A DNA stretch of 64,000 bases, from NCBI RefSeq assembly GCF_014197265.1, contig NZ_JACIFH010000001.1:1798001-1862000 (forward strand), given 5' to 3'. Position 1 is the stretch's first letter, and every line of letters starts with the position of its first letter. Positions 1 through 64,000 of this stretch are shown piece by piece. The notes beneath the pieces are model-generated. The model did not search any database. It had not been told where the DNA came from and was given only the letters and a program-made list of their open reading frames with translations. The position numbers were made by a program, and so were the translations under genes. This DNA is from Microbacterium invictum. Its GTDB lineage: Bacteria > Actinomycetota > Actinomycetes > Actinomycetales > Microbacteriaceae.

Positions 1-2078
1 CCGACGATCGCACGCAGGTTGCCGGCCTTCTTGAGCCGCGGCAGGGTCGCACCCGACCGGTCGATGATGGTGTTGTTCTCGCGCCAGCGGTCGATCGCGA
101 AGCTCGGCTCGGCGACCATCTCGGGGCCGATGAGCGAGAGGAACATCACGGAGTTGGGGATGTCGGAGGAGTCCTCGATCACGGTGCTGGAGTCGGCGAC
201 CGGAGCCAGGCGCTTGGCGAGCATGGTCATCAGCTCGTTCGAGACGCCCTCGACCGCGGTGTCGGCGTACTCGACGCCGCTGAGCACGGTGCCGACCTGG
301 GCGTGCTCGAGGCCGCCGGTCACGTCGAGGAAGCTGCGGCACACTGCCGGCAGCGCGTCGACGACCGGGGCGACGAACAGTCCGTAGACGCCGACGTCGG
401 CGCCGCGTTCGAGCACCTGGGTCAGGCGGGCGCGGTCGACGGGCGCGTCGCCGGTGACGATGACGACCACGGCCGTCTGGCCGGGGAAGGTGGCTTCCTC
501 CGCCGCGCGGCGCACGTCGGTGCCGTACCGCATAGGGTCCCAGTCCTCGTCGTAGGGGATGCGGGGCGAGGCGGCGGCCTTCGAACGCCGCATGACGAGT
601 TCCTCCAGGCCCGACAGCAGTGCGGATCCGGTGGATGCCGAGTCCGACAGCGGCATGTCGCGGAACGGGCTGCGCTCGCTCGAGGTGTGCGGCAGCCACT
701 TGAGCCACTCGAGCTCTTTGGCCCACTCCGGTTCGGTGAGGGCGACGGCGACCAGTTCGTTCGGCGAGTGCAGCCCGAACAGCTGCACCGACAGGCCGCG
801 CAGGGCATCGGCGGCTTCGCGCATCGGGCCGGCGACGCCGATGACGCCGACGCTCTGCAACGACTCCAGCACCGGCACGCCGTCGATCCGGCGATACCGC
901 TCGCGCAGCCGCTCGACCCGGTCGACATACTCCTGCAGAGCGTCGGGGTTCTCGCCGCTCTTGATCGTCGTGCGCGAGGGCGCCTCGCACGTGCCCAGCC
1001 GCACGGACAGGAAGTTCCAGTGCTCCGGGCGCCGCGTCCACAGCATCGGCCCCAGGCGCATGGCCTCGTCGAACACGACCGCGACCGGCGGCACCTCGGC
1101 GTTGCGGATCTCGCGCTCGCGCGGCCGTTCGCGGTAGAGCTTCTCCTCGGTCTCCTCGAAGGTCCGCTCGAACGTCTCGGCTTCCTTCCGCACGCGCTGC
1201 CCCACCTGGGTGCGCTGCGAGATGAAGTTCCCGAGCAGCATGAGCGGCGTCATGAAGATGATCACGAGCGAGCGCGGGTTGCCGTTGATGGCGAAGATCG
1301 TCGCGCCCAGGATGATCGGCGCGACGAGCATCGGCCATGGGAAGAGCCGCGTGGTCGGCTCCTTCGGCATCTTCGGCTCCGGCAGCTCTTCGCCCACGTA
1401 GCGCGGTTCGACGCGCGGGCTGCGGTTGAACAGCAGACTGCCGCCGCGCTCGAGTACGGGGTCGGGCTCATGCTGCGGCGCGAAGTCGTCGACCAGGCGC
1501 ACGACCAGCTCGGTGTCACCCAGGACGAACCGCTGCCCGGGGATGACCCGCAGCCGCGGCACGAGTCCGCCGTCGATCACGATGCCGTTCGCGGAGTTGA
1601 GATCGACGATCTCGACGGCGGCGCCCACTTCGATGCGGGCATGGCGCTTGGAGATGAGCGGATCGTCGAGCACGACGTCGTTGTCGGGCGCGCGACCGAT
1701 GGTGAAGTGGCCGCGCGGCAGCGGGAACTCGAGCCCGGCGACAGGGCCCGAAACCGCGGCGAGGACCGCGGTCGCCGGAGCGCCGGCAACCCGTGCGGGC
1801 TGGTAGTTCTCGCCGAGGTTGATGACCGAGGCGATGAATCCCGACCCGACCGGCGCATCGCTGATGAGCATGTTCGGGTCGAGCATGCTGAACTCGGTCG
1901 CCGTCGGCGGGGCGACGCTGAGGGTGAGGACGTCGTCGGCGGAGGCGACGATCTCGTGCTGCGGGTCGGCGTCGACGACCTGCCGGGCGACGTCGTGGAC
2001 GGTCGCGGTGGTGTCCGAGGTGATGACGATGTCGGTGCGCTGCGCGTTGGCGCGCTGCAGGGTCAGTTTGAGTCTCAT
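1..2078 (-). CDS. FHA-FtsK/SpoIIIE (EssC/EccC-like) type VII secretion protein, 3' part outside window
   Basis: The frame is open from an ATG at 2078 to the left edge, giving 692 N-terminal residues without a stop. Residues 1-90 look like the ubiquitin/FHA-like N-terminal domain of EssC. Residues about 105-195 form a second, clear FHA domain with the GR, SKRH and NSANG signature residues (about 128, 143 and 161). Two membrane segments follow at about 247-265 and 270-286, then a cytoplasmic region. EssC proteins are membrane ATPases that power export of WXG100 proteins. The Walker motifs that would prove this lie beyond the window, so the family call rests on N-terminal architecture and on the RDD/FHA neighbour, whose stop is 21 bp upstream. 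An FHA-only membrane protein is the alternative. Confidence 0.75.
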   Translation of the reverse strand, partial: MRLKLTLQRANAQRTDIVITSDTTATVHDVARQVVDADPQHEIVASADDVLTLSVAPPTATEFSMLDPNMLISDAPVGSGFIASVINLGENYQPARVAGAPATAVLAAVSGPVAGLEFPLPRGHFTIGRAPDNDVVLDDPLISKRHARIEVGAAVEIVDLNSANGIVIDGGLVPRLRVIPGQRFVLGDTELVVRLVDDFAPQHEPDPVLERGGSLLFNRSPRVEPRYVGEELPEPKMPKEPTTRLFPWPMLVAPIILGATIFAINGNPRSLVIIFMTPLMLLGNFISQRTQVGQRVRKEAETFERTFEETEEKLYRERPREREIRNAEVPPVAVVFDEAMRLGPMLWTRRPEHWNFLSVRLGTCEAPSRTTIKSGENPDALQEYVDRVERLRERYRRIDGVPVLESLQSVGVIGVAGPMREAADALRGLSVQLFGLHSPNELVAVALTEPEWAKELEWLKWLPHTSSERSPFRDMPLSDSASTGSALLSGLEELVMRRSKAAASPRIPYDEDWDPMRYGTDVRRAAEEATFPGQTAVVVIVTGDAPVDRARLTQVLERGADVGVYGLFVAPVVDALPAVCRSFLDVTGGLEHAQVGTVLSGVEYADTAVEGVSNELMTMLAKRLAPVADSSTVIEDSSDIPNSVMFLSLIGPEMVAEPSFAIDRWRENNTIIDRSGATLPRLKKAGNLRAIV

Positions 2079-2099
2079 CTGGGTGTCCTCATCGGGGTG

Positions 2100-3542
2100 T
2101 CAGCCTCGGGAGATGCGGACCTGGGCGAACCGGTCCCCGAATCGGATGGTATCCCCGTCCGCCAGGGGAGTCTTCTCCCCCGCCGTCAGCGGCTGTTCGG
2201 TGCCGCCGCGGCTCAGGGCGCTGCCGTTGGTCGAGCCGCAGTCGACGACCACGACGATCCCGTCGCTGCGCAAGACGGCGAGATGGGTCTTCGAGACCGA
2301 CATCGACGGGTCGTGGACGGGCACGAGCGCGAGCCCGGCGTCGGCGGGCCCTGCGGCGGGCGCCCGGCCGATGAGGGCGCCGCCCGCGTCGATGTCGATC
2401 GTCTCACCCGAGTCGAGCATGAGCGAGACCCGTACCGTCACGGGCACCGGTGCCGCGTCGGGTGCGTGTGCCGCGAGGGATGCCGGTGGCGCGACGGCCG
2501 GCGCCGGTGCGGCCGGTGCCGGTACGGCCGCGGCTGCAGGTCTCGCCGCGGCAGGCGCGGGGTCGCTCGGCAGCAGCTGCGGGGGCGCCCAGGCCGTAGG
2601 TGACGGAGTGGATGCCGCGGGCCGCACCACCGGCGGCACCGCGACCCCGGGTGCGGCGTCGGGCGACGACATCGCCGGGGGCTGCGGTGTGAAGGCTGAC
2701 GGCACGACCACCGTCGGGATCGCGGGCGGCTCCTCACCGGGCCCAGCGGTGGGCTCGGGCCGCGCCGCGCCGAGCACTCCCCCGCTGCTGCGGGTGACGG
2801 GGATGTACACGTCGGGACCGCGGTGCCCGGCGGACGTCGCGAGCGAGGGCAGCACGCTGCGCTCGTCGACGAGGTCGGTGGCGGCGGCCTTGCGGGCGAT
2901 CCGCATGCGCTTGGCGTCGTACGGGTTCAGGCCCCGCCGGGCGTCGACGAACCAGGTCTGCGCGACGCGATCGGGCCAGCCCCGCCCGCGCTTCTCCGGA
3001 TCGAACAGGGGCGAGAGGGCGACCACCAGCAGCGGTCCGATCAGCACGACGATGAAGCTCCCCCACATGATGAGGTAGCGCACCACGGCCCCCCGCCAGA
3101 ACTTGGGCCGCTCGAGCGTGCGCACATTCACGACGCGGATGCCGGTCAGCATCTTCCCGAAGGTCACGCCCCTCCGGCCGTTGAGCACGAGCTGGACGAT
3201 GATGAACGCCGTCGTCAGCACGGAGGAGACGAGTCCGGCAAGTCCCACCCACAGCAGGTCGTTCCGGCCGAACAGCGCCGCCGGGTCGCCCTCGGCGACC
3301 ACCTGGAGCAATGCCGGCAGCGTCACGATCAGCATCGGCAGCTGCAGCAGCGCGACCAGCAGGATCTCGAAGACCGTCGAGAGCACGCGACGGCCGAACG
3401 GCGCGGGGATCAGGCCGAGCGACGCGGCATACTCCGGCCGTGCCCGCCCGTACGCGTCGAGCCCTTCGATGGGACGCTCATCGTCGTCGATCTCCCAGAT
3501 CGACCCGCCGGGCCTGGCGCGTCGCGCCTCGCTGTCGCTCAC
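2100..3542 (-). CDS. RDD family membrane protein with C-terminal FHA domain
   Basis: This 480-residue protein starts at a GTG. The N-terminal half is an RDD membrane domain with spans at about 53-80, 97-120 and 156-179 and charged loops containing RRGVTFGK and DPEKRGRGWPD. A long Pro/Ala-rich linker (about 240-365) leads to an FHA domain (about 376-478) with GRAP, SVSKTH and GSTNGS motifs. FHA domains bind phosphothreonine, so the protein may link Ser/Thr kinase signalling to the membrane. RDD/FHA proteins are common beside actinobacterial type VII secretion ATPases, and the next gene (21 bp on) fits this. It begins 13 bp after purH, so it is probably transcribed with purN-purH. Confidence 0.8.
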   Translation of the reverse strand: MSDSEARRARPGGSIWEIDDDERPIEGLDAYGRARPEYAASLGLIPAPFGRRVLSTVFEILLVALLQLPMLIVTLPALLQVVAEGDPAALFGRNDLLWVGLAGLVSSVLTTAFIIVQLVLNGRRGVTFGKMLTGIRVVNVRTLERPKFWRGAVVRYLIMWGSFIVVLIGPLLVVALSPLFDPEKRGRGWPDRVAQTWFVDARRGLNPYDAKRMRIARKAAATDLVDERSVLPSLATSAGHRGPDVYIPVTRSSGGVLGAARPEPTAGPGEEPPAIPTVVVPSAFTPQPPAMSSPDAAPGVAVPPVVRPAASTPSPTAWAPPQLLPSDPAPAAARPAAAAVPAPAAPAPAVAPPASLAAHAPDAAPVPVTVRVSLMLDSGETIDIDAGGALIGRAPAAGPADAGLALVPVHDPSMSVSKTHLAVLRSDGIVVVVDCGSTNGSALSRGGTEQPLTAGEKTPLADGDTIRFGDRFAQVRISRG

Positions 3543-3555
3543 AGATGCCGCGCGA

Positions 3556-5163
3556 TCAGTGGAAGAAGTGCCGCTCGCCGGTGAAGAACATCGTCACGTT
3601 CGCCGCGCGCGCGGCGTCGATGACCTCCTGGTCGCGCACCGAACCGCCGGGCTGGATGATCGTCTTGATCCCCGCGTCGATGAGCACCTGGGGGCCGTCT
3701 GCGAACGGGAAGAACGCGTCCGAGGCCGCCACCGAGCCGGCCGCACGCGCACCGGCTCGCTCGACGGCCAGGCGGCACGAGTCGACGCGGTTGACCTGTC
3801 CCATGCCGACGCCGACCGTGGCCGAGCCCTGCGCGAGCACGATGGCGTTGGACTTGACCGCCCGGCACGCCTTCCAGGCGAAGATCATGCCCTCGAGCTC
3901 TTCCGGGGCAGGGCGCTCTCCGGCCACGAGCTCCCAGTCGTTGGCCACCGAGACGATGTCGTCGGGGAACCGGTCGGCGTCCTGCAGCAGCAGGCCGCCC
4001 GAGACGAGGCGCACGTCCATCGTCTCCTGCTGCCAGTCGGTGGGCAGTTGCAGCACCCGCAGGTTCTTCTTGAGCCGGAACACCTCGAGCGCCTCGGGCT
4101 CGAAGTCGGGGGCGATGATGACCTCGGTGAAGATGTCGCGCAGGTTCTCGGCCATCTTCAGCGTCACGGTGCGGTTCGCGGCGATCACGCCGCCGAACGC
4201 CGAGACCGGGTCGCACTCGTGGGCGCGCAGGTGCGCCGAGGCGATCGGGTCGAGCGCGTTGGGCGCGGTCACGGCGATGCCGCACGGGTTCGCGTGCTTG
4301 ATGATGGCCACCGCGGGCTTGACCATGTCGAACGCGGCGCGCAGCGCGGCATCCGCATCGACATAGTTGTTGTACGACATCCCCTTGCCCTGCAGCTGGG
4401 TCGCCTGAGCGATGCCGTGGCCGCCGACGCGGGTGTAGATCGCGGCGCGCTGGTGCGAATTCTCGCCGTAGCGCAGCGTCTCGAGGCGCTCGGCCTTTAT
4501 CGTCAGGTGCTGGGGCAGGTCGCCCTCTTCGCCGATGGTCTCCTCGGCGAACCAGGTCGCCACGGCGCGGTCGTAGGTCGCGGTGTGGGTGAACGCGCGT
4601 GCGGCCAGCTCACGACGCTGGGCGAGGCTCGTGCCGCCCTTGCCGAGCGACTCGATGATCGCCGGGTACGACTCGGGTGAGACGACCACGGCCACGTTGG
4701 CGAAGTTCTTCGCCGAGGCGCGCACCATGGCGGGTCCCCCGATGTCGATCTGCTCGACGACGGCATCGCCGGTGGCTCCGGATGCCACGGTCTCGGCGAA
4801 CGGGTACAGGTTCACCACGACCAGCTCGAAGGGGAGGATGCCGAGGTCGGCCAGCTGTTGCTCGTGGTCTTCGAGGCGCAGGTCGGCGAGGAGGCCGGCG
4901 TGGACGGCCGGGTGCAGCGTCTTCACGCGGCCGCCGAGCGACTCGGGGAACCCGGTGACGGTCGACACGTCGGTCACCTCGTGGCCGGCGTCGCGGATGG
5001 TCTGGGCCGTCGAGCCGGTCGACACGATGTCGACGCCGGCGTCGGCGAGTGCCTGCGCAAGGGACAGCAGGTCGGACTTGTCGCTGACCGAGACGAGTGC
5101 GCGGCGCACGGGGACGACGTCGCGGTGACGGTAGCGCGCGGGATCGATGGTCGGACCGGCCAT
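3556..5163 (-). CDS. purH: Bifunctional AICAR formyltransferase / IMP cyclohydrolase
   Basis: PurH catalyses the last two steps of purine synthesis: formyl transfer from 10-formyl-tetrahydrofolate to AICAR, then ring closure to IMP. The 535-residue length is typical. The N-terminal IMP cyclohydrolase domain has the SVSDKS start and the TVTGFPE and GGRVKTLHP motifs. The transformylase domain has IKHANPCG, which carries the catalytic Lys-His pair, and ends with a C-terminal HFFH. The ATG start is 27 bp after the purN stop, and the gene continues the perM-purN-purH order known from Mycobacterium. Identification is secure. Confidence 0.97.
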
Positions 5164-5190
5164 GGGGGTCTCCAGAGTGTCGGGGTCGGG

Positions 5191-5781
5191 TCAGGGGGTG
5201 AGTGCGGCGAGGTCGAGCGTGCCGGTGGCGATGCGCCGGACGACGTCGATCAGGAGCCTGCGCTCGACGGGCTTGATGCGCTCGTGCAGGGTGTGCTCGG
5301 TGTCACCGGGCAGGACCGGCACGCGTTCCTGCGCGATGATCGGACCGGCATCCACCCCGTTGTCGACGACGATGACGCTCGCGCCGGTCTCGGTCACGCC
5401 GGCGGCGAGCGCGTCGCGGACGCCGTGCGCTCCGGGGAACTCAGGCAGGTAGGCGGGGTGCGTGTTGATGAGCTGCGGCGCCCAGGCGTCGACGACCGTC
5501 GCGGGCAGCAGCCGCATGAGGCCGCTGAGGACGACGAGGTCGGGCTTCCAGACTTCGAGCTGTGCCTGCAGCTCCTCGCCCCACTCCTCCCGGGTCTCGA
5601 ACTGGCCGAACGGCACCATGAAGGTCGGGATGCCGAACTCCTCGGCGTGCTCGAACCCGTCGGCCTGCCGGTCGGCCCCCACGACGACCACGCGAGCGGG
5701 GAAATCGGGGTCGCTGGCGGCGTCCAGGAGCGCTCGCAGATTCGAGCCGGCTCCGGAGATCAGGACGGCGACCGTGAGCAC
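5191..5781 (-). CDS. purN: Phosphoribosylglycinamide formyltransferase (GART)
   Basis: PurN transfers a formyl group from 10-formyl-tetrahydrofolate to glycinamide ribonucleotide. The 196-residue protein begins [15 protein letters not shown], the usual GART N terminus with its phosphate-binding loop. The catalytic triad falls at N106, H108 and D144 ([13 protein letters not shown] and [11 protein letters not shown]). The GTG start lies 4 bp after the stop of the PerM-like gene, which suggests translational coupling. The next gene, 27 bp on, is purH. Confidence 0.96.
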
Positions 5782-5785
5782 CCGG

Positions 5786-7450
5786 TCAGTCTACCGGCGG
5801 TCGCGGGTGATCCTCGGCGTCGCCCCGAGGCGGCAGATGCTCGTCGAGCGGAATGGTCTCGGTCGCGTCGAACGGAGCCGGTTCGAGCTTCCCCGTGCGG
5901 GTGGCCGCGTCCGACGACCCCGGCTCGGTGGAGTAGCCGGAGCCCAAGGGGTCAATCGGCTCAGTCGGATCGCCGGGGCCGAGGGGCCCGACCGGTGCGG
6001 CGGCGTCACGTGGCGTCATCGGCGCGGTGGGCCGGCCGGAGTCGTACGGCGCGATCGGCTGGGTGGTGTCACCGTACCCGGCCGGCGACATCGGCTCTGC
6101 AGGATCGTGCGACTCGGCAGGATCGGGCACACCTGCCGGTGCAACGGGCTCGGTGTCGAGGTGGTCCGCGTGATCCCGCCATTGCTGGCCGGCCGGCCAG
6201 CGCTCCGAAGGCTGGGTCCATACGGCTCCGGATGCCGACTCCGGCGCCGGCTCGAGACGCGGTGCGAGCAGCAGGATGCCGGCGCCGATCGCCATCTCCA
6301 CCGCGACGACCAGCGCGAACGGGCCCGGCGCGGGGCCGGTCGTGGCGAGCCGTCCGGGCCCGAGTGATCCTGAGGCCAGTGCGGCGAGGCCCGCCGCGGC
6401 CGCACCGCTGCCGATGACGATGACGGCCAGCACGACCAGACGCTCGGCGATCGGGTCGTGCGAGGCCGGCGCGACCGCGAGCCGAGTCCGGGCGGTCCAG
6501 CCGGCGAGCGCCCCGACGCCGATCACGCCGAGGGCGAGCAGCAGCATCCACGACGACGACTGCTCGGGGATCGCGCCGAAGATCGGGATGCCGGGGACGA
6601 CGCCCAGGCTGGTGCCGGCGGGCGACACGGTGGTGCCGGCGCCGAGCGCGAACCCCGGACCGGCGACGTACGACGCGCCCCATACGACGAGGGTGGGCAG
6701 GTAGGCGAGCTGGCCGAGCGAGAGGACGATGACGCCGATCAGATCGACGTGCGCGGCCTGGTAGAGCCCGACGATGGCGCCGCCGCGGGCGAAGACGGCC
6801 ACCGCGAGGGCCAGCGCGCCGAAACCGATGAGGCCGACCACTGCTGCGGCGAGGCCGCGGGCGGCCGCGGGCGGAACCTGGGTCCACTGCGGATGGCGCC
6901 GGAGGGCCGCGCGCGCGGCATCCATCACCGAATCGTCGCCATGACGCCAGGCGCCCACCAGTGCTCCGCCGAACGCCGGCAGCGCGTATACGAGAACCGG
7001 GAACAGCACGGCGGGAAGCACGTCGACGGCGGCCAGGTCGATCCGCGCGGTGAGGGCGATCGCGGTCGCGACCGCGGCGACGACGATCGTCCCGGCGACG
7101 ACGCCGAACGGCCACGCCCCGGCGCGGGCGGCGCGACCACCCGAGCGGGCGGCGAAGATCGCGGTGAAGGCGGCCAGGGCGGTGGGCGCGAGCGAGAGGA
7201 CGAACGAAGCAGCCTCGTCGGGGATGCCGGTCGCGGTCAGATACTCCTCGGTGAGCGTCACCTCGATCGGCACGAAGTGCCCGAACTGCCACAGGCGCAC
7301 CGACGTCGGCCACAGCGCGGCCCAGTCCTCGGCCCCCGGAAACCCGAACACCCACAGCAGGGTCAGCGGCGCGGCGACCACGACGAGACCGACGGCGACG
7401 GCGATCGCAGCGTCGAGGGCGGCCAGCAGGGCGACGAGAAGGCGGTTCAT
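5786..7450 (-). CDS. perM: PerM-like (DUF6350) polytopic cell-division membrane protein
   Basis: The 554-residue protein is hydrophobic over about residues 1-400, with roughly ten predicted spans, and ends in an acidic, proline-rich cytoplasmic tail with repeated PxxP-type blocks (about 415-554). Size, topology, the [13 protein letters not shown] start and its place directly ahead of purN match the DUF6350/PerM family. In Mycobacterium tuberculosis PerM (Rv0955) also precedes purN-purH and helps stabilise the divisome. The role is taken from that family, not from a catalytic motif. The gene is divergent from the purine permease gene, with 99 bp between the starts. Confidence 0.8.
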
Positions 7451-7481
7451 GCCGTTTCGACCCTACCTACGGTGGCGGCCG

Positions 7482-7496: not shown

Positions 7497-7549
7497 GCCC
7501 GGGTCACGAGCATGCCCGCAGGTTCGCTACGTTCTTTCCAGGAGGATTC

Positions 7550-9004
7550 ATGAGCACATCCACGTCAGCGGCCCCGACGTCCGACACCCGACCCACCGGC
7601 GGACTCGACCGCTTCTTCGAGATCTCCCGCCGCGGGTCGACTCTCGGCACCGAGGTGCGGGGTGGTGTGGTCACGTTCGTGACGATGGCGTACATCGTCA
7701 TCCTGAACCCGATCATCCTGTCGGGTGCCGCGGACATCGACGGCGAAACCCTGTCGTTCGGCGCCGTCGGTGCGGCCACGGCACTGACCGCCGGTGTCAT
7801 GACCATCCTGTTCGGCCTGGTCACCCGCCTGCCGTTCGCGTTCGCCGCCGGACTCGGCATCAACGCGTTCGTCGCGTTCAGCGTCGTCGGCGACGTCACC
7901 TGGGCCGAGGCCATGGCCCTGGTGATGATCAACGGCGCCATCATCGTGCTGCTGGCCGCGACCGGCCTGCGGAAGATGATCTTCGACGCCGTCCCGGTGC
8001 AGCTGAAGATCGCGATCACGGTCGCGATCGGCTTCTTCATCGCGTTCATCGGCTTCGTGAACTCCGGGTTCGTCACCGCCACCGGCGCGAACTCGCCGCC
8101 CGTGGGCCTCGGCCAGGGCGGGTCGGTGGCCACAGTCCCGACGCTCATGTTCGTCATCACGCTGCTGCTGACCGGAGTGCTCATCGCGCTGCGCGTGAAG
8201 GGCGCGATGCTGATCGGCCTGGTCATCGGCACGGTGCTCTCCGTCATCGTCGAGGCGATCTGGCCGCTCGGCTCGGCCGTCGACAACCCGGGCGGATGGG
8301 GACTCACCGTCCCCACGCTCAGCGGCTCGCCGGTGAGCGTGCCCGACCTGAGCCTCATCGGCGCCGTCGACTTCGGCTTCGACCTCACCCGGGTCAGCAT
8401 CGTCACGCTCGTGATGCTCGTGTTCACCCTGGTGTTCTCGAACTTCTTCGACGCCATGGGCACCATGACGGGCCTGGCCAAGGAGGCCGGCCTCGCCGAT
8501 GAGAAGGGCGACTTCCCGCGCATCAAGTCGGCGCTGATCGTCGAGGGCGTCGGCGCGATCGCCGGTGGCGCGACCTCGTCGTCGTCGTCCACGGTGTTCG
8601 TCGAGTCGGGCTCGGGCATCGGCGAGGGCGCCCGCACGGGCCTGGCCAACGTCGTGACCGGTGTGCTGTTCCTGCTGGCGATGTTCTTCACGCCGCTGAC
8701 CTCGATCGTCCCGACCGAGGTGGCCGGTGCCGCCCTGGTGATCGTCGGCGCGATGATGATGGCCCAGGTCAAGAGCATCGACCTGACCGACTTCCGCGTG
8801 CTGCTGCCGGTGTTCCTCACCGTCAGCGTCATGCCGCTGACCTACTCGATCGCCAACGGCATCGGCGCGGGCTTCATCAGCTGGGTCGTCGTGCACGCCC
8901 TGTCGGGCCGGGCCAAGACCATCAGCCCGCTGCTGTGGGTCGTGGCCATCGGCTTCGTGATCTTCTTCGCGCGCGGCCCGATCGAGCTGCTCATCGCCAG
9001 CTGA
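7550..9004 (+). CDS. NCS2/AzgA-type purine (hypoxanthine/guanine/adenine) permease
   Basis: This 484-residue permease is hydrophobic throughout, with about 12-14 predicted spans. It has the AzgA-branch motifs TFVTMAYIVILNP near the N terminus and SSSTVFVESGSGIGEG in the second half, where substrate contacts lie in this family. Such proteins import purine bases with protons. The start is set by an AGGAGG Shine-Dalgarno at 7539-7544, six bases before the ATG, and longer upstream reading frames lack such a site. The gene is divergent from perM-purN-purH, a sensible setting for salvage next to de novo synthesis. A strong terminator follows at 9021-9050. Confidence 0.92.
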   Translation: MSTSTSAAPTSDTRPTGGLDRFFEISRRGSTLGTEVRGGVVTFVTMAYIVILNPIILSGAADIDGETLSFGAVGAATALTAGVMTILFGLVTRLPFAFAAGLGINAFVAFSVVGDVTWAEAMALVMINGAIIVLLAATGLRKMIFDAVPVQLKIAITVAIGFFIAFIGFVNSGFVTATGANSPPVGLGQGGSVATVPTLMFVITLLLTGVLIALRVKGAMLIGLVIGTVLSVIVEAIWPLGSAVDNPGGWGLTVPTLSGSPVSVPDLSLIGAVDFGFDLTRVSIVTLVMLVFTLVFSNFFDAMGTMTGLAKEAGLADEKGDFPRIKSALIVEGVGAIAGGATSSSSSTVFVESGSGIGEGARTGLANVVTGVLFLLAMFFTPLTSIVPTEVAGAALVIVGAMMMAQVKSIDLTDFRVLLPVFLTVSVMPLTYSIANGIGAGFISWVVVHALSGRAKTISPLLWVVAIGFVIFFARGPIELLIAS

Positions 9005-9020
9005 AGCTCGCTCTCGTGTC

Positions 9021-9050
9021 AGGGGGTGGATGCCACGGCATCCGCCCCCT
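9021..9050 (+). terminator. Intrinsic terminator of the purine permease gene
   Basis: Fourteen-base arms (9021-9034 and 9037-9050) pair with one G-U and a two-base loop, followed by TTCTCTGT. The hairpin starts 16 bp after the stop codon. Its inner arms are the words GGATGCC and GGCATCC, which are over-used throughout the window. Confidence 0.8.
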
Positions 9051-14677: not shown

Positions 14678-14722
14678 GTCACCAGCGTACGGTCCGGTGA
14701 CCGCCCGAGGGTCGGCATGACA

Positions 14723-14754
14723 GAGGGGGTGGATGCCGCGGCATCCACCCCCTC
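14723..14754 (-). terminator. Terminator of the sucCD operon, perfect 16-bp palindrome
   Basis: Sixteen bases from 14723 are followed at once by their exact reverse complement to 14754, 14 bp past the sucD stop. The arms consist of GAGGGGGT plus GGATGCCG. No T-tract is evident, as is usual in such GC-rich DNA. In RNA the central bases would form the loop. Confidence 0.75.
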
Positions 14755-14767
14755 GTCGAGAACCTGC

Positions 14768-15670
<903 letters not shown>

Positions 15671-22482: not shown

Positions 22483-22483
22483 A

Positions 22484-25949: not shown

Positions 25950-27140
25950 TCACCCCGCGAGCGCGATGACCGGGGCGAGGTCGTCACGGGTGAGCGTGAT
26001 CCACGGGCCTGCCGGGTCGAGCAGGATGCCGGTGATGTCGGGGTCGGCGGCAAGCGCCTTGCCGAGCTGCTCCGCCGTCAGCGGCAGGGGCCGTTCGTCG
26101 CGACCCTGGACGAGCACTTCGAGCGGGTGACTGAAGATCTGCAGCAGGCGCGCGCCCGCTTCGGTGCGCACCTCGGCGAGGCCCACCCGCGCGGAGTCGT
26201 CGGCCTTCCCGGCTGCAACCCAGAACTTGGCGCGGGTGAGCGCGTCGGCGATGTCGGCCGCCGTCGCATCGGTGCGCGGCCTCGCGAGCAGGTTCTTCAG
26301 CGGGAACCCCTCGTCGGCCTCTTCGACCGACTTCTGGATCAGCTGGGACGGCAGGATGATCCGCGCCTGCGGCGTCGCGTGGTCGATGATGAGTCCGGCG
26401 TACGGTCCCTCGATGACGTTGCGCAGCACGACCTGCGCCGGCTGGCCGACGGCAGAGGTCTTCGTGTCGCCGTCCGATGCGATGCTCCGCTGCAGCGCCT
26501 CGCCTCCGGTGAACGCCAGCAGGAACCGCTTGTCGTCGATCGCCGACACAGCGAGGGTGAGCTGCTTGCCTTCGGCGAGGAGGGACTTCGCGTCGCCGCG
26601 CACGCGCACGTACAGGTTGCCCTGCAGCGACTGCCGCATCGCGTTCATGATGTCGAGGTTGCCGGGCTTCTCGGGCAGCGCCGCGAGCGCACTGCGCAGC
26701 ACCACGTTGTCGGGGAGTCCGGGAACCTTCTCGGTCTGCGCGGGCGCTTCGGCGGGCGGCTGCTTTCGAGTGGATGCCGGTGGCGTGGATGCCGCGGGCT
26801 TGCCGTACGTCGACACCGAGATGTTCACGTGCGGCACCGGCTCGGCGGGAGTCTCCGGTTCCGTCGCGCCGACGACCGCCGCGTCGCCGGTATCGGAAGC
26901 GGTGTCCGCGGCGACGGCCTCGGGCGTGCCGGAGTCGCTGTTCGCGGAGACGGCTCCGGACATGCCGCGGTCGGCGGCTCCGGGCGTTCCGTCGGCGACG
27001 GCTCCGGCTGCTCCGTCGGCGACGGCTCCGGCATCCGTCACCACGGCATTGTCCGTCGAGGTGACGGCATCGTCCGGTCCCGGCGCGTCGGCGGAAGGGG
27101 TCTCGGACTGGGCTTTGGAGCGGCGGGAGAACAGTGCCAT
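25950..27140 (-). CDS. SseB-family protein with disordered N-terminal extension
   Basis: The 396-residue product has two parts. Residues 1-110 are low-complexity Ala/Asp/Gly/Thr-rich sequence with repeats such as AVADGAAGAVADGTPGA. The remainder looks like an SseB domain, including VLRSALAALPEKPGNLDIMNAM and a C-terminal region with PLEVLVQGRDERPLPLTAEQL and DPAGPWITLTRDD. SseB domains are widespread, poorly understood modules in Actinobacteria. Transcription runs toward the LigD-polymerase operon, 388 bp on. Confidence 0.7.
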   Translation of the reverse strand: MALFSRRSKAQSETPSADAPGPDDAVTSTDNAVVTDAGAVADGAAGAVADGTPGAADRGMSGAVSANSDSGTPEAVAADTASDTGDAAVVGATEPETPAEPVPHVNISVSTYGKPAASTPPASTRKQPPAEAPAQTEKVPGLPDNVVLRSALAALPEKPGNLDIMNAMRQSLQGNLYVRVRGDAKSLLAEGKQLTLAVSAIDDKRFLLAFTGGEALQRSIASDGDTKTSAVGQPAQVVLRNVIEGPYAGLIIDHATPQARIILPSQLIQKSVEEADEGFPLKNLLARPRTDATAADIADALTRAKFWVAAGKADDSARVGLAEVRTEAGARLLQIFSHPLEVLVQGRDERPLPLTAEQLGKALAADPDITGILLDPAGPWITLTRDDLAPVIALAG

Positions 27141-56375: not shown

Positions 56376-56377
56376 GG

Positions 56378-58009: not shown

Positions 58010-58145
58010 GCGGTGCTCCTGCGAGGGTTCGGGTGGATCTTGTGGGGCGGCGAGAGTGCCGCCGGATGAGGGATGCCGCCGTGGACCAGCCCCGGCGACG
58101 TGCTCATGCAAGCAGTCGCGTGCGTTCGTGTTTCGCGGCGTCGTC

Positions 58146-58164
58146 ACATCGGGCAACCCGATGT
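58146..58164. promoter_or_regulatory. 19-bp palindrome in the divergent importer/monooxygenase control region
   Basis: ACATCGGG-CAA-CCCGATGT is a perfect 8-3-8 palindrome within the 231 bp between the SBP and monooxygenase starts. It is a likely operator for coordinated control of both operons. No regulator gene is adjacent. Confidence 0.6.
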
Positions 58165-58225
58165 CACATGGCGACATGCGAGGTTGCCGGGCGTAACGCT
58201 GCACGCGAGTGAGCAATGCGCGGCC

Positions 58226-58231
58226 GTACAG
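58226..58231 (+). promoter_or_regulatory. -10-like hexamer suggesting leaderless mRNA of the monooxygenase gene
   Basis: TACAGT lies 9 bases before the ATG at 58241, so transcription would begin at or next to the start codon. The absence of any Shine-Dalgarno ahead of that ATG supports leaderless translation. No convincing -35 is seen. Confidence 0.4.
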
Positions 58232-58240
58232 TCGCTCGAT

Positions 58241-59545
58241 ATGACCTCCCCCTCACTCGTCGCGCCTCGCATCGCGACCCTCGAAGAGTTCGACCGCGAG
58301 CTCGACACCCTGCTGATCGGAGTCACCGCGCGCGCCGCCGATCAGGAGCGCTCGGGCACGCTGCTGCGTGACGATGTCGCCGCGCTGCAGGCACTCGGGT
58401 TCGGCGCGCTCCGGCTGCCGGTCGAGTCGGGCGGGCTCGGTCTGAGCTTCGAGCAGTACGTGGAGCGGCTCATCCGGGTCGCGGCCGCAGACTCGAGCCT
58501 GGCTCACATCTACCGCGGGCACATCGCCTTCGTCGAGGGGCTGCTGGCCGAATACGACCCCGATCCGGTGAACAACCGCACGTGGACCCGTCGCATCGCC
58601 CGCGGCGACCTCATCGGCAACGCCCAGTCCGAGCGCAACGCGACCGCGGACCTCACGACCGTGCTCGAGCGCGACGGGGACCGGCTCACGCTCACCGGCC
58701 GCAAGTACTACACGACCGGCAGCATCTACGCGGACTGGATTCAACTGAGCGCCCTGGACGGCGAGCAGTGGGTGGGCGTCACGGTCTCGACCTCCGAGCC
58801 GGGGGTCGTCTCGTACGACGACTGGGACGGGTTCGGCCAGTTGCTCACCGGCACCGGCACGACGACGTTCGACCGGGTGCCCGTCGACCCCTCGGACGTC
58901 GTGGCAGCACGCGAGAACCCGGAGCGCGGCGATCACATCGCCGCCGTGTTCCAACTCGTGCTGCTGGCCGTCGTAGCCGGCATCGGCCGCGCCGCGCTGC
59001 GCGACACGATCGAGTTCGTGCGGCCGCGGCGCCGCATCTTCGGCTTCGCCGGTGAGACGCTGCCGCGCGAGGACACCCTGGTGCAGGAGACCGTCGGGAG
59101 TGTCTCGAGCGCCGCCGACGCCGCGGTGCGTCTGGTGTTGTCGGGCGCGCGCGACATCGAGGGTGCCGTGCGGCGCCGGAGCGGCGGCGGGGCGGATGCG
59201 CTCGGCGACGTCCTGCTCGATGTCTTCCGGCTGCAGCAGGTCGTGGCCCCGATCGTGCTCGACGCGATCACCGAGCTGTTCGAGGTCGGCGGCGCCTCGG
59301 CCGTCAGCCGCACCATCGCCCTCGACCGCCATTGGCGCAACGCCCGCACCGTGCACTCCCACAACCCCGCGGCGCAGCGGCGTCGCGCGATCGGCGACTT
59401 CGAGCTCAACGGTCAACGGCCCGTGTGGCGCGGTGCCGCGGCGTCGGCTGCCCAGGCGACCGACGCCGCCGGCACTCCGGCATCCATCACCGACGACGCC
59501 GGCACTCCGGCATCCACCCTCACCCAGCCCGAGGAGAACCGCTGA
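58241..59545 (+). CDS. Acyl-CoA dehydrogenase-fold flavin monooxygenase (DszC/SfnC-like)
   Basis: The 434-residue protein has the acyl-CoA dehydrogenase fold but with the DszC/SfnC signatures. These are ALGFGALRLPVESGGLGLSFEQ early, TGRKYYTTGSIYADW in the beta domain, and DRHWRNARTVHSHNPAAQRRRAIGDFELNG at the end. Such enzymes use reduced flavin and oxygen to oxidise sulfur or nitrogen centres, so a monooxygenase role is more likely than fatty-acid oxidation. The last 35 residues are a Thr/Pro/Ala tail containing a duplicated 10-residue block. The stop overlaps the next start by one base (TGATG). Confidence 0.85.
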   Translation: MTSPSLVAPRIATLEEFDRELDTLLIGVTARAADQERSGTLLRDDVAALQALGFGALRLPVESGGLGLSFEQYVERLIRVAAADSSLAHIYRGHIAFVEGLLAEYDPDPVNNRTWTRRIARGDLIGNAQSERNATADLTTVLERDGDRLTLTGRKYYTTGSIYADWIQLSALDGEQWVGVTVSTSEPGVVSYDDWDGFGQLLTGTGTTTFDRVPVDPSDVVAARENPERGDHIAAVFQLVLLAVVAGIGRAALRDTIEFVRPRRRIFGFAGETLPREDTLVQETVGSVSSAADAAVRLVLSGARDIEGAVRRRSGGGADALGDVLLDVFRLQQVVAPIVLDAITELFEVGGASAVSRTIALDRHWRNARTVHSHNPAAQRRRAIGDFELNGQRPVWRGAAASAAQATDAAGTPASITDDAGTPASTLTQPEENR

Positions 59546-60921
59546 TGGCCGAGAAGAAGCGTCTCATCCTGAACCTGTTCGAGATGAACACGGTCAGCCA
59601 CATCACGCACGGGCTGTGGCGACTGCCCGACAACAACCGCGAGCGGTTCAACGACATCGACTACTGGATCGAGCTCGCACAGATCCTCGAGGGCGGCGGT
59701 TTCGACGGGATCTTCCTGGCCGACGTGGTCGGCGCGTACGACGTGTTCCGCGGCGGGCCCGAGACCGCACTGCGGGAGGGGATGCAGATTCCGAGCAACG
59801 ACCCGCTGCTGGTCGTGCCGGCGATGGCCGCGGTCACCAAGCGGCTCGGCTTCGGCGTCACGTTCTCGACGACGTACGAGCCGCCGTTCGCGTTCGCGCG
59901 GCGGATGTCGACGCTCGACCACCTCACCAAGGGCCGGATCGGCTGGAACATCGTCACGTCGTACCTGCCGAACGCGGCGCAGAACTTCGGCCTCGACCAG
60001 GAGGTTCCGCACGACCAGCGCTACGAGATCGCCGACGAGTACCTGCACGTGCTGTACAAGCTGTGGGAGGGCTCATGGGATGACGACGCGGTCCTGCGCG
60101 ATCGCGACGGCGGCCTGTACACCGACCCGTCGAAGGTGCGGTACATCGACCACGTCGGCGAGCACTTCCGGGTGAAGGGCCCCCACCTGGCGGAGCCCTC
60201 GCTGCAGCGGACGCCGGTGCTGTTCCAGGCGACCGGGTCGCCGGCGGGCATCGCCTTCGCCGGCCGGCATGCCGAGATCGTGTTCACGGGTGGCCGGTCC
60301 GTCGAAGACTTCCAGCGCAACGCGCAGGCGATGCGGTCGGCGGCTGTGGGTCAGGATCGGGATGCCGGTGACATCAAGTTCATCGTGCAGGCCGGGGTCG
60401 TCGTCGGTCGCACCGAAGCGGAGGCCGCCGACAAGCTGCGGACCTATCGGGCGCATCAGAGCCTCGACGGCATCTTGGCGCATTCGAGCCTGCCGGTGGA
60501 TCTGACCGCGTATCCGCGTGAGACGCCGCTGTCGGAGATACCGGCTGCTTCGGGCCGTTTCCCCCTGCCCGGTGCGACGGTGGGCGAGGCGCTGGACAAG
60601 ATCATCGAGGGGCGCGAGGATCGCTTCTTCGTCGCCGGAACGCCGAAGGTCGTCGCGGACGAGATCGAGCTGTGGCTCGACGAGGCGGGCATCGACGGCA
60701 TCAACCTGCGGCAGTACCACTCGTTCGACACCGCCCGCGACTTCGCCGAGCTGGTCGTGCCCGAACTGCGTCGCCGCGGCCGGCTGCGCGAGGACGAGGC
60801 TCCGACGACGCTGCGCGAGAGGCTGTTCGGCCGCGGCGACCGGCTGCCCGCGTCGCACACCGGCGCCCGCTACCGCGGCGGCGCGAACCTGGGCGTGCCG
60901 GAGCTCGCGCTCACGGTCTGA
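59545..60921 (+). CDS. LLM-class FMN-dependent monooxygenase (NtaA/SoxA/DszA-like)
   Basis: The 458-residue protein has the bacterial-luciferase fold of the NtaA family: LILNLFEMNTVSHITHGLWR, FDGIFLADVVGAYDV, RIGWNIVTSYLPNAAQNFG and the family loop TPVLFQATGSPAGIAFAGRHAEIVF. NtaA-type enzymes use FMNH2 and oxygen to split C-N or C-S bonds (nitrilotriacetate, sulfones). With the DszC-like enzyme just upstream it suggests two-step oxidation and cleavage of an imported compound. No flavin reductase gene is in the locus. A GAGGAG site lies inside the preceding gene. Confidence 0.9.
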   Translation: MAEKKRLILNLFEMNTVSHITHGLWRLPDNNRERFNDIDYWIELAQILEGGGFDGIFLADVVGAYDVFRGGPETALREGMQIPSNDPLLVVPAMAAVTKRLGFGVTFSTTYEPPFAFARRMSTLDHLTKGRIGWNIVTSYLPNAAQNFGLDQEVPHDQRYEIADEYLHVLYKLWEGSWDDDAVLRDRDGGLYTDPSKVRYIDHVGEHFRVKGPHLAEPSLQRTPVLFQATGSPAGIAFAGRHAEIVFTGGRSVEDFQRNAQAMRSAAVGQDRDAGDIKFIVQAGVVVGRTEAEAADKLRTYRAHQSLDGILAHSSLPVDLTAYPRETPLSEIPAASGRFPLPGATVGEALDKIIEGREDRFFVAGTPKVVADEIELWLDEAGIDGINLRQYHSFDTARDFAELVVPELRRRGRLREDEAPTTLRERLFGRGDRLPASHTGARYRGGANLGVPELALTV

Positions 60922-60946
60922 GGTCGACCGCGCGACGGTCCCCACG

Positions 60947-61014
60947 TGCGCAGAATCGCGCCAAGTTCGCACCGGATCGGCCGTTCGCGTGCGAACTTGG
61001 CGCGATTCTGCGCA
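60947..61014. repeat. 68-bp palindromic element, copy 2 (perfect arms)
   Basis: Arms of 25 bases (60947-60971 and 60990-61014) are exact reverse complements around an 18-base centre. The outer ends read TGCGCAGAATC and the inner ends AAGTTCGCA. The element lies between the convergent monooxygenase and cyclodeaminase genes and could act as a terminator for both. It is the sister of the copy at 52719. Confidence 0.9.
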
Positions 61015-61031
61015 GTTGGGGCAGGGCCGGG

Positions 61032-61994
61032 TCAGTCGGCGAGCAGGCGGGCGAGGACCAGGTCTTCCCACGCCATGCCGACCGCGCTGTACAGGGCAGG
61101 GTGGCCGGCGCGGCGGATCACCCGGCCGGCGACGAGGTCGACGAGGTTCGCGGGAGGGTGCGACTCCCAGTACTCGCGCGGCTGCGCGCTGAGCAGGTTG
61201 CCCGACTCGCGCAGCGCCGACGCGCGCGCTTCGACCACGATGTCGGCACGGTCCACGAGCGCGGCATCCACTTCGCGCGCGTCGAGGCCGTGCGACCCGA
61301 TGGCAGCGACGACGGCATCCCGGCGCACGAGCGTCCCGTCGAGCACCGGCGCCGCGGACGACGTCGCGCAGATGATCACGTCCGCCGCCGCCACGGCCGC
61401 AGCGGTCGAGATGACCTCGGTCGCGGGCGCGACAGCGGCGGCGGCGTCGATGACGACACCCGCGTTCAGCCCTGCAGCCGCGAGCCGCGCGACCAGCGGC
61501 GCGGCGCGTTCGGGCGAACGCCCGGCGATGAGCACGCGGCCGATCTCGCGATGCGCGGCGATCCAGTGGACGTGCGCCTCGGCCTGCGGACCCGAGCCGA
61601 GCACCAGCAGCGTCGGGATGGGCCGATCGCCCCACAGGCGCGTGACCGCGAGGGTCGTGACGGCCGGCGTCCGCGCGAGCGTGAGGGCGGTGCCGTCGAT
61701 GATGGCGGTCGGCGCGAGCGTCTGCGCGTCGAACAGCAGGTAGTGCCCCTGGATCTTGGGGTGCCCCGCGGCGGGGTTGTCGGGGGCGATGGTCAGTACC
61801 TTGATGCCCACCGCGCCAGGCACTTCGGCGGGCATCAGCAGGAACTCGCCGCGCGCCAGCCCGCTGAACAGACGCGGGGAGTCGGCTTCGACGTCGAGCC
61901 CGCCGGCCAGTGCCGCGGCGAGCGCGTCGACCGTGGCTGTGGGAGTGAGCCGCTCGCTGACGGTGGCGGCATCCAGATACGGAATGGAACTCAT
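61032..61994 (-). CDS. Ornithine cyclodeaminase / mu-crystallin family protein
   Basis: The 320-residue protein has an N-terminal substrate domain (SPRLFSGLARGEFLLMPAEV, then GIKVLTIAPDNPAAG). A Rossmann domain binds NAD(P), with VLGSGPQAEAHVHWI near residue 130. Relatives include ornithine cyclodeaminase, alanine dehydrogenase and ketimine reductases, so the exact reaction is open. The ATG overlaps the TGA of the GH127-type gene, so the two are translationally linked, an odd pairing for an amino-acid enzyme. Confidence 0.88.
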   Translation of the reverse strand: MSSIPYLDAATVSERLTPTATVDALAAALAGGLDVEADSPRLFSGLARGEFLLMPAEVPGAVGIKVLTIAPDNPAAGHPKIQGHYLLFDAQTLAPTAIIDGTALTLARTPAVTTLAVTRLWGDRPIPTLLVLGSGPQAEAHVHWIAAHREIGRVLIAGRSPERAAPLVARLAAAGLNAGVVIDAAAAVAPATEVISTAAAVAAADVIICATSSAAPVLDGTLVRRDAVVAAIGSHGLDAREVDAALVDRADIVVEARASALRESGNLLSAQPREYWESHPPANLVDLVAGRVIRRAGHPALYSAVGMAWEDLVLARLLAD

Positions 61995-64000
61995 GCGTGG
62001 GTCCTCCTCGGCAGCACGATCCGCTGACGCGCTTCTTCGTTGCCGGCGCGGTCGGTGGCGGCGAACTCGATGACCTGCTCGGTGTCGGTGAGCGCGCGGA
62101 CGAACGCCTCTTGGAAGGTGCCCCAGAACGTGCCCGGTCCCTCCCATTGGATCCGCTCGACGCCCGACACGTCGTCGGAGGCGTCGAGCGTGATCTCGAC
62201 GCTTGCGCCGAGCGATTTCACGCGCGCGCGAGAGACCGGCGGTGCGGTGTCGACGCTGAATTCGCGGCTCGTCGATCCGACGGCACCGTGGGCGTCGATG
62301 ACGCGGGCATCGATGGTGTGGATGCCGTCGTCCAGCACGACCGGGCCCGCTCCGTCGTTCCACGCGCCGCCGTCGAGCCGCCAGCTGCACTGCAGCTCGG
62401 CGCCGTCACCGAGGTCGACGGGCTGGACATGGACGCGCGGCGACGACAGGTACCAGCCGGAGGGCGCGGCCGTGATGTCGGCGACGATCTCGACGGCGGG
62501 TGCCACGGGCGTCTCGTCGTCGGGCACGGTCCACGTGAGGGTGCCGTCCGCGGCGGTGGACCACGCGGCCCGCTCGCCCGTGGTGACCGTGACGGTTCGC
62601 GCATTCGCGGTGTCAGGCGATGCCCCGGGGACGATGCGGGCGAGGGACTCCCCCGCCGCGACCAGGACGTTCTCGAGCTCGTCGCGCGACAGCAGGCCTT
62701 CGGCACGGACGGCGAGTGCGACCTCGAGCACGCGGTCGAGCAAGGCGTCGCCATCGCGGAAAGCGCCGTCGGCCCACAGAGCACTGAGGAAGGTCGAGCC
62801 ATCCGGCCGGCGGCGGTTCGGCACACCGGTCAGAACGCCGGCGAACGCGATGACCTCATCATCGGCGCGGAGGTACATGTGGTAGCGGGAGTCGGCGCCC
62901 GACCAGCACGGTTCGAACTCGAGACCGCCGAGCGAGATCACGCCCGCTCCGAGATCTGCGGCGCGGGCTTCGCGGGCCGGAGCGTCGCCGGTCAGCGGCC
63001 CCGCGGCCGGAGCGTCGCCTCTCAGCGGCCCCGCGGCCAGCGCCTCGCCGGTCAACGAGCCGTCGATGCGACGCGCCCCCCACAGCGGCGCACCGATCGC
63101 GGTCGTCGCCTCGGAGCGGGCCAGCAGCAGCGTCGGGCCGAGGAACAGCGCCTGCAGACCGGGGTCGTCGATCGTCCGCTCGGCGCGCAGCGGGAGGGGC
63201 AGGGTGAAGCGCACCTCGTCACCGTCGGCCCACACGCGGTCCAGCGTCACGAACGAAGCGGGGATGCCCGTCGCTGCCTTTTCGCCGTTCACGAAGACGT
63301 CCACGGTTCCGAGAACCCACCCGGGAATCCGCACGTGGATCGCGCGCGCGAGGGTCGCCGCCGGTCCGTCCGGAGGAGCACCCGCCGCACCCCGCGCGAA
63401 CCGCACGCGGACGTCGCCGCCCACCGGGTAGGCCGAGTCGACCGTCACCTCGAGTCCCGCCCACACTGCCGAAGCTGCGAACAGCTGCGTGATCCACAGC
63501 TCGCCGTCGCCCTCGGCGAAGACGGCCTCCTGGTAGGACACGTGGTTCTCGAGGCCGGTCCCGCCGCAGCAGGTGCCGACGTTGTCGTACTCGCGCAGCG
63601 CGCCCGGGTGGACCGGGAACATGTAGGTGACCTCAGGGCTCACGTCCGAGCGCACCGCGCGCCGCGACCCGAGGATGTGGTTGACCAGCGCCCGCTCGAT
63701 GTAGTCCTGGTAACGCGCATCGCGCGTGTGCTGGAACAGCCGGCGTGCGATCTTCACCAGGTTGTAGGTGGCGCAGGTCTCGGCGTTGCGGTGGCCGATG
63801 TCGCCCGCGACCGTGGCGGGCGGCCCCCACAGCTCGCTCTCGCCGGTGCCGCCGTGCGCGTACATGCGGCCGGGCACGAGCTGGCCCCAGAGGCCCGTCA
63901 CGGCATCCAGGTACCGCGGCGTGCCGGTGATCTCGTACTGGCGCAGGTACCCGAGCAGCTGCGGCAGGTGCTGGTTCGCGTGCATGTCGGTCAGGATGTC
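61991..64000 (-). CDS. GH127-type beta-L-arabinofuranosidase-like protein, 5' end outside window
   Basis: The 670 codons seen (no start in the window) include LTDMHANQHLPQLLGYLRQYE, NAETCATYNLVKI with the catalytic acidic and Cys region, and TCCGGTGLENH, which replaces the usual CCPPN zinc-site motif. These fit family GH127 (formerly DUF1680), which removes beta-L-arabinofuranose from plant glycans. The C-terminal 150 residues look like Ig/OmpL47-type beta domains (VDTAPPVSRARV, DASDDVSGVERI). Residues encoded by 62975-63064 form a 10-residue repeat (GPLxGDAPAA). It is followed with overlap by the cyclodeaminase gene. Confidence 0.85.
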   Translation of the reverse strand, partial: DILTDMHANQHLPQLLGYLRQYEITGTPRYLDAVTGLWGQLVPGRMYAHGGTGESELWGPPATVAGDIGHRNAETCATYNLVKIARRLFQHTRDARYQDYIERALVNHILGSRRAVRSDVSPEVTYMFPVHPGALREYDNVGTCCGGTGLENHVSYQEAVFAEGDGELWITQLFAASAVWAGLEVTVDSAYPVGGDVRVRFARGAAGAPPDGPAATLARAIHVRIPGWVLGTVDVFVNGEKAATGIPASFVTLDRVWADGDEVRFTLPLPLRAERTIDDPGLQALFLGPTLLLARSEATTAIGAPLWGARRIDGSLTGEALAAGPLRGDAPAAGPLTGDAPAREARAADLGAGVISLGGLEFEPCWSGADSRYHMYLRADDEVIAFAGVLTGVPNRRRPDGSTFLSALWADGAFRDGDALLDRVLEVALAVRAEGLLSRDELENVLVAAGESLARIVPGASPDTANARTVTVTTGERAAWSTAADGTLTWTVPDDETPVAPAVEIVADITAAPSGWYLSSPRVHVQPVDLGDGAELQCSWRLDGGAWNDGAGPVVLDDGIHTIDARVIDAHGAVGSTSREFSVDTAPPVSRARVKSLGASVEITLDASDDVSGVERIQWEGPGTFWGTFQEAFVRALTDTEQVIEFAATDRAGNEEARQRIVLPRRTHA

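Follow-up and report, generated by a model that had tools for sequence, protein, structure and literature searches.

A sharp seven-base word with lineage-specific dialects in Microbacterium: a possible self-recognition sequence of the DNA-uptake type

Introduction

Neisseriaceae carry the DNA uptake sequence (DUS), which is GCCGTCTGAA together with its dialects and has ComP as its receptor, while Pasteurellaceae carry the uptake signal sequence (USS) in the forms AAGTGCGGT and ACAAGCGGT. Cyanobacterial HIP1, GCGATCGC, is an octamer of very high copy number. Chi and KOPS are short, over-represented and asymmetric words; restriction sites, for their part, are usually avoided rather than enriched. 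Here we describe an over-used word, GGATGCC with its complement GGCATCC, in a stretch of 64,000 bases from Microbacterium invictum (the window hereafter; bases 1798001-1862000 of NZ_JACIFH010000001.1, a single-contig genome of 3,580,260 bases), and follow it through the genome, the genus and the family.

Three published features of uptake words bear on the comparison, each taken from the part of the source available to us. All DUS dialects of the Neisseriaceae have CTG in common (PMC3630211), inverted pairs of DUS or USS act as terminators (PMC12616744), and words differing from the consensus by one mismatch are enriched in H. influenzae and N. gonorrhoeae (PMC1939737), a trait that is typical rather than defining. 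In the literature considered, seen in part, uptake words with dialects are described for Neisseriaceae and Pasteurellaceae only.

Results

Enrichment and shape of the word

The window holds 100 copies of GGATGCC/GGCATCC, 56 forward and 44 reverse, scattered over its whole length (1..64000) in genes and gaps, with 80 lying wholly within called genes. Dinucleotide shuffles of the window (n = 100) give a mean of 15.8 copies (standard deviation 3.9, maximum 25), and a third-order Markov model predicts 22.6, which places the word at the top of all 7-mers (z = 16). An earlier note on this DNA, which had proposed this Markov count, estimated about 80 copies by eye; it was right about the over-use and too low in the number. 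Its cited copies at 633, 2610, 4780 and 18313 are exact, those now placed at 9028 and 26772 were off by one base, and the copy of its "59471 region" lies at 59479. The excess is not a peculiarity of the window, since in a genome sample made up of forty 20-kb stretches and the window itself (864 kb of 3.58 Mb) the word occurs 1277 times against 311 expected.

The earlier note also saw the flanks extending to TGGATGCCGCGG. That did not hold up as a specific preference: TGGATGCCGCGG has 168 copies genome-wide, stronger enrichment is seen for other extensions, TGGATGCCGGTG among them, and what precedes the word is T or C and what follows it is G or A. With G after the word, TGGATGCCG reaches 387 copies against 32 expected in the 864-kb sample (12-fold); with A, TGGATGCCA reaches 7-fold; TGGATGCCC and TGGATGCCT stay near 1-fold. 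The preferred full form is [T>C]GGATGCC[G>A], and GGATGCCG is found 1901 times forward and 1935 times reverse in the whole genome. The 21 single-mismatch 7-mers of GGATGCC have ratios of only 0.37 to 2.02 in the sample, the lowest being GGATGCA at 0.37-fold, with a net deviation of -264 from 4458 expected, and we therefore conclude that [T>C]GGATGCC[G>A] is a sharp word and not a compositional trend. The reversed word contains TAG and is thus too low in coding DNA as a control, so we turned instead to Markov and codon nulls and compared genomes with one another. The same sample has another over-used word that is broader, TCGCCGA/TCGGCGA (1430 against 818); it stands among the top words in many relatives and in at least one genome that does not belong to the family.

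The bias is at the level of DNA

Genes were called by a simple in-house method, which gave 717 genes in the 864-kb sample. These hold 1031 copies of the word, against 357 (standard deviation 17) after synonymous codon shuffling within genes, making GGATGCC the most enriched 7-mer under this null at 2.9-fold (several unrelated 7-mers approach 2-fold). All six word/frame classes occur. The frames that require rare codons are the most enriched, at 4- to 22-fold over expectation (G GCA TCC, 243 against 11), and the favoured frame GGC ATC C is close to what codon shuffling yields (287 against 213). The codon context tells the same story: in G GAY GCC, Asp is written GAT in 409 of 532 cases (77%), against 3114 of 15767 (20%) overall, as the earlier note had claimed; Ala at the word is GCA in 243 of 315 cases against about 7% elsewhere, and His is CAT in 35 of 51 against about 15%. 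Sequence between called genes holds 17.7 copies per 10 kb (212 in 120 kb, although some of these bases may belong to missed genes), compared with 14.2 within genes, and 1028 of the 3867 synonymous opportunities in called genes are used. Codon shuffling, codon context and the intergenic copies all show that it is the DNA, not the protein, on which the bias acts, as had been proposed from the letters alone.

These results leave little room to explain the word as a by-product, whether of codon usage, of protein composition or of context-dependent mutation. Shuffling does yield 213 of the 287 copies in the favoured frame, and unrelated 7-mers reach about 2-fold, so that the smallest dialect ratio reported below (2.4-fold) is not far above background. 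However, the shuffle explains only 357 of the 1031 genic copies, the rare-codon frames and the denser intergenic sequence go the other way, neighbouring words are unaffected, and relatives with much the same GC content have different words. Codon or protein bias as the cause is rejected by the codon shuffles and the codon context, and we give the by-product explanation as a whole next to no credence.

Spacing, strand and hairpins

Both the spacing and the strand skew of the word, which the earlier note had singled out as informative, lack any large-scale pattern. The coefficient of variation of the spacing is 1.09, compared with 1.04 (standard deviation 0.03) for simulated uniform scatter. Along the 864-kb sample there is no strand heterogeneity (chi-square 21.0 at 40 degrees of freedom) and no replichore bias, the best two-breakpoint contrast (|z| 2.32) falling below the random mean of 2.45; a 14-base parS-type palindrome, sought in the sample to place the origin, had no match. 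Because the spacing is random, a chromosome-organising word is the less favoured reading, and a regularly spaced one is disfavoured. An oriented recombination or segregation word, such as a Chi site for RecBCD, AddAB or AdnAB or a KOPS for FtsK, would be expected to look much like GGATGCC in being asymmetric, over-used and 7-9 bp long, but the near-equal strand counts of GGATGCCG and the two strand tests speak against it; we reject that reading and consider it very improbable.

The copies do show local order. Among pairs no more than 30 bp apart in the 864-kb sample, 24 have the inverted order GGATGCC...GGCATCC and 9 the opposite inverted order (4 of these 9 from one repeat family), and 8 are forward-forward and 18 reverse-reverse; 12 of the 24 lie at least partly outside called genes. 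Two inverted pairs in the window, both GGATGCC-NN-GGCATCC, look like terminator hairpins, as far as predicted folds can tell. The first (copies at 9028 and 9037; 9021..9050, + strand) would form an uninterrupted 13-bp stem, with a predicted RNA fold of -27.9 kcal/mol (z -5.4), that begins 17 bases past the end of the called gene 7667-9004 (+). The second (14731 and 14740; 14719..14757, - strand) would form a 17-bp stem with one bulge (14 bp uninterrupted), with a predicted fold of -35.4 kcal/mol (z -7.3), just downstream of the called gene 14768-15670 (-). An example of a same-strand pair lies at 26772..26793 (+), 15 bases apart, inside the called gene 25950-27140 (-).

Two repeat structures built on the word were also seen. 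One is a hairpin-like element, found dispersed, whose arms CCGGCATCCGC and GCGGATGCCGG enclose 16 variable bases; it forms a small word-based repeat family with four copies in the 864-kb sample (L017:18395, L018:11388, L034:8232 and L037:3671). The other is a unit of about 32 bp repeated five times in tandem at L031:8838-8990, with TGGATGCCGCGG in each.

Dialects within Microbacterium

We counted words over the whole genomes of 119 Microbacterium, a draw from the larger genus, using the same set for each word. TGGATGCCG ranges from 42 to 1394 copies, and the source genome is the highest. A first survey, of 80-kb samples from five genomes low in TGGATGCCG, found three kinds of other word and one genome without any, and the comEC regions of 60 genomes (20 kb each, one of 15 kb) added further alternatives. 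Taking as dialect genomes those that stand clear of the rest, with no copy threshold, 13 of the 119 use another sharp word: CGGATCCG in six, GGATGCGG in four, CGGATGGC in two and TGGTTCCG in one. For CGGATCCG the six are G267 (3091 sites), G312 (2809), G316 (2531), G260 (2133), G128 (1695) and G304 (1171), against 50-415 in the other 113. CGGATGGC has 1970 sites in G238 and 1900 in G243, against at most 652 in the other 117, and TGGTTCCG has 2917 in G319, against at most 201 in the other 118. The four genomes with GGATGCGG are G240 (4331), G257 (3749), G280 (2775) and G286 (2123); the other 115 form a graded background of up to 1265, nine of them above 1000.

These words largely replace GGATGCC. 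In the 13 dialect genomes TGGATGCCG is low to middling (42-371), and nine of the 12 genomes lowest in it belong to the 13. Like GGATGCC, the alternative words are sharp, their single mismatches being mostly near 1-fold with a few sparse ones at 2- to 3-fold, and in genes they exceed the codon-shuffle null 2.4- to 17-fold. The TGGTTCCG word of G319 is denser between genes (21.2 against 10.4 per 10 kb in genes), as is the dialect word of G312, G267 and G316 (28.6 against 22.2), and that of G260 and G128 is about equally dense (13.2 between and 14.9 in genes). All share a 5' part, YGGAT, or CGGAA in G319 when its word is read as CGGAACCA, and vary in their 3' part. In a LeuS and HolA protein tree of 60 genomes (midpoint root, support values not read), which includes 11 of the 13 dialect genomes and leaves out G304 and G286, G238 clusters with G243, G240 with G280 and G257, G316 with G312 and G267, and G128 with G260, the GGATGCGG group being nested among GGATGCC genomes. 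The dialects follow clades. As an aside, the comEC region of G243 (L100) also contains the HIP1-like palindrome GCGATCGC, 17 times against 3.3 in 20 kb, beside its CGGATGGC dialect.

Sharp words of 7-9 bp that change from lineage to lineage would also fit a methyltransferase or another DNA modification whose specificity switches between lineages. Restriction sites, however, are usually avoided rather than enriched, and deamination of a methylated base should deplete one specific neighbour of the word, whereas none is strongly depleted (GGATGCA, at 0.37-fold, is the lowest). A word tied to modification is accordingly improbable in our view, even though HIP1 has been linked to orphan methyltransferases in the part of a paper available to us (PMC4390886).

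Breadth, conservation and mobile DNA

In a draw of 60 Microbacteriaceae genera, each represented by a single genome, many have GGATGCCG in abundance, and at least one, G051 (84 copies, control 118), shows no enrichment. GGATGCGG outnumbers it in some genera (G026, 1937 against 1172; G020, 1559 against 474), and G048 carries both. In 20-kb samples from 19 of these genera, a twentieth of 1.2 kb having been set aside, GGATGCC is at least 3-fold enriched in G001, G003, G006, G008 and G025. The leading words of G020, G026, G028 and G029 include some of the GGATGCG type, and samples of this size reveal no clear word in the remaining ten. A survey of named loci, with 16 of 80 examined, found CGGATGCC in a Herbiconiux locus and a GCGGATGC-type word in one of Cryobacterium suzukii. 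One Leucobacter and one Aurantimicrobium record had no word, and in nine named records of organisms that do not belong to the family the top words included none of this kind. Across the order (149 genomes), TGGATGCCG counts are low in the 139 from outside the family, with slightly higher values in families f4 and f6 (169 in 2.1 Mb with a control of 22, for instance).

Conservation at orthologous sites, a further check suggested earlier, was followed in codon alignments of LeuS, HolA, ComEC and ComEA from genomes in which at least 10% of the opportunities in these genes carry the word, with ordered pairs pooled. The word is shared in 0.79 of cases at less than 5% LeuS divergence and still in 0.41 at 20-25%, against a baseline, where the first genome lacks it, of 0.08-0.19 (0.17 at 20-25%). 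Word sites are shared beyond the baseline, to which codon-favoured frames may add.

This sharing across distant species suits a HIP1-type chromosomal word, that is, the site of a resident DNA-binding protein acting in the nucleoid, in segregation or in repair, kept by selection and shifting in specificity between lineages, although the favoured codon frames may explain part of it. The palindromic CGGATCCG of six of the 119 genomes also resembles HIP1, both being 8-bp palindromes with more than 1000 copies. On the other side, the spacing is no more regular than random, hairpin arrangements occur, four of the five dialects, GGATGCC included, are not palindromic, and no candidate chromosomal protein has been put forward, no search having been aimed at one. 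We regard this explanation as rather unlikely.

Mobile DNA was compared in four Microbacterium phages, taken without regard to the dialects of their hosts. Observed and Markov-expected counts of GGATGCCG are 5 and 4.9 in Min1, 3 and 2.7 in Casey and 5 and 3.8 in Librie, so that three of the four are unenriched or nearly so (1.0- to 1.3-fold), and 18 and 6.5 in Ariadne; for GGATGCC they are 16 and 10.7 in Min1, 16 and 9.9 in Casey, 13 and 12.9 in Librie and 32 and 14.2 in Ariadne. Within the source genome, opportunities are used least in L036 (6 of 46), the stretch with the lowest GC of those sampled, but next comes L023, of high GC (18 of 95).

Competence and pilus genes

The host appears, from gene content, to possess a competence channel and a putative DNA-binding pilus. 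ComEC is present in 118 of the 119 Microbacterium genomes, the exception (G236) being 77% complete, and in the source genome a ComEA with SLBB and helix-hairpin-helix domains lies between LeuS and ComEC, so that the com genes the earlier note had wished to look for are indeed there; ComEA-like matches occur in 58 of 60 comEC regions. The source genome also has a compact Tad locus, with the TadA ATPase, TadB/C, a Flp-like pilin, a TadE minor pilin and an Rv3654c-like TadE protein, and relatives of TadB/C were found in all 30 genomes tested. Of the 119 genomes, 31 encode a PilB-like ATPase of type IVa (E at most 1.3e-130). In another actinobacterium, M. luteus, transformation makes use of Flp pili and of homologues of comEA and comEC, according to the parts of two papers available to us (PMC4322843, PMC6370729).

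Irregularities were also seen at these loci. Downstream of tadBC in L257 and L261 (genomes G257 and G214), a resolvase/recombinase gene with the Pfam Resolvase domain lies within or against an interrupted flp pilin frame. It looks like an integrated element that has taken flp as its target, perhaps much as phages insert into competence genes. In G128 the tadBC match at C6:10541-11335 has an internal TAG stop.

Discussion

Of the three readings offered in the earlier note (an uptake sequence, a methylation-linked motif and a chromosome-organising word), the uptake sequence gains most from these findings, owing to the clade dialects, the hairpin pairs, the competence genes, the random spacing and the absence of replichore bias, and to that extent the suggestion is partly supported. 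Whole-genome dialects with a common core that follow clades have been described for DUS (PMC3630211, in part) and USS (PMC12616744, in part), and the hairpins, the spacing, the lack of bias and the com genes fit as well; we therefore place uptake first. On the sequence evidence, we lean somewhat toward [T>C]GGATGCC[G>A] being a self-recognition word of the DNA-uptake type in Microbacterium.

The likeness to DUS lies in the thousands of copies, in clade dialects with a common core, one dialect differing by an insertion (PMC3630211, in part), and in the inverted pairs, which for DUS and USS are used as terminators (PMC12616744, in part) and here are predicted folds. In contrast to DUS, the Microbacterium words have a YGGAW core, a Gram-positive host of high GC and one palindromic dialect, the widespread pilus is Tad/Flp instead of type IVa, and single mismatches are not enriched. 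USS resembles the Microbacterium word in having two dialects that follow subclades and is used in inverted-repeat terminators (PMC12616744, in part), to which the predicted hairpins here may correspond; it differs in being discontinuous (same source) with A/T-rich flanking segments (PMC1939737, in part), the flank preference in Microbacterium being weak and the word and host unrelated. HIP1 shares the very high copy number of an octamer, and CGGATCCG is also an 8-bp palindrome, but the other Microbacterium words are not palindromic and several distinct words replace one another in one genus. Chi and KOPS are alike in being short, over-represented and asymmetric; the Microbacterium word, unlike them, is not oriented with replication.

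If the uptake reading is right, a DNA-binding protein, most plausibly a Tad/Flp minor pilin or a ComEA-like receptor, would prefer DNA that bears the word, and imported fragments would recombine into the chromosome and thereby spread it. The spread would continue until about a quarter of the synonymously permitted sites carry the word. A change of receptor specificity in a lineage would then see its whole genome gradually rewritten to the new dialect, be it CGGATCCG, CGGATGGC, GGATGCGG or TGGTTCCG.

A number of observations weigh against this. A gradual drive predicts some enrichment of single mismatches (PMC1939737, in part), and GGATGCC has none. The dialects separate imperfectly: G286 combines 371 copies of TGGATGCCG with 2123 of GGATGCGG, the GGATGCGG background is graded up to 1265, and three genomes low in TGGATGCCG have no assignable word, namely G244 (44% complete), G290, whose comEC region shows none, and G232, whose comEC region shows a weak CCGGATG-type signal. 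Two dialect words are rarer between genes than in them, CGGATGGC in G238 and G243 (4.8 against 8.2 per 10 kb) and the word of G240, G257 and G280 (1 copy in 4.8 kb against 8.5 per 10 kb), and the CGGATCCG dialect of six genomes is palindromic, unlike known DUS or USS. The source genome itself uses just 4 of 28 opportunities in its comEC region (the LeuS, HolA, ComEC and ComEA genes), and phage Ariadne is enriched 2.3-fold for GGATGCC and 2.8-fold for GGATGCCG.

The PilB-like ATPase is neither necessary nor sufficient for a high word count; G224, G268 and G216, for instance, are rich in the word and do not have it. ComEC does not discriminate word use either: it is nearly universal, which makes its correlation uninformative, and it is present in G290, a genome without a clear word, so that competence genes do not track the word. 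No receptor was found; the flp-tadE regions of 21 genomes were compiled and no statistical test of co-variation was made. Searches of the literature for the word, for uptake or competence in Microbacterium or Microbacteriaceae and for actinobacterial uptake words gave no such report among the matches listed, subscription journals being thinly covered, and among those matches we found no uptake or competence experiment in Microbacteriaceae.

With these points taken into account, we see the balance as even on the wider proposal that Microbacteriaceae have their own DNA-uptake system for species recognition, in which a YGGAW core has radiated within Microbacterium into at least five largely exclusive dialects, including a palindromic one, with a Tad/Flp minor pilin as the probable reader, and in which specificity switches repeatedly rewrote thousands of sites and would bar gene exchange between species. 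To our knowledge such a system would be the first in a Gram-positive phylum. If true, it would be a third independent case of an uptake word, in which a single genus has no fewer than five words, and would mean that self-recognition evolved more than once. The dialects would offer a natural series of specificity switches in which to find the reader protein. The word would also mark which Microbacterium species can exchange genes, and would suggest putting the right word on DNA meant for transforming laboratory strains of the genus.

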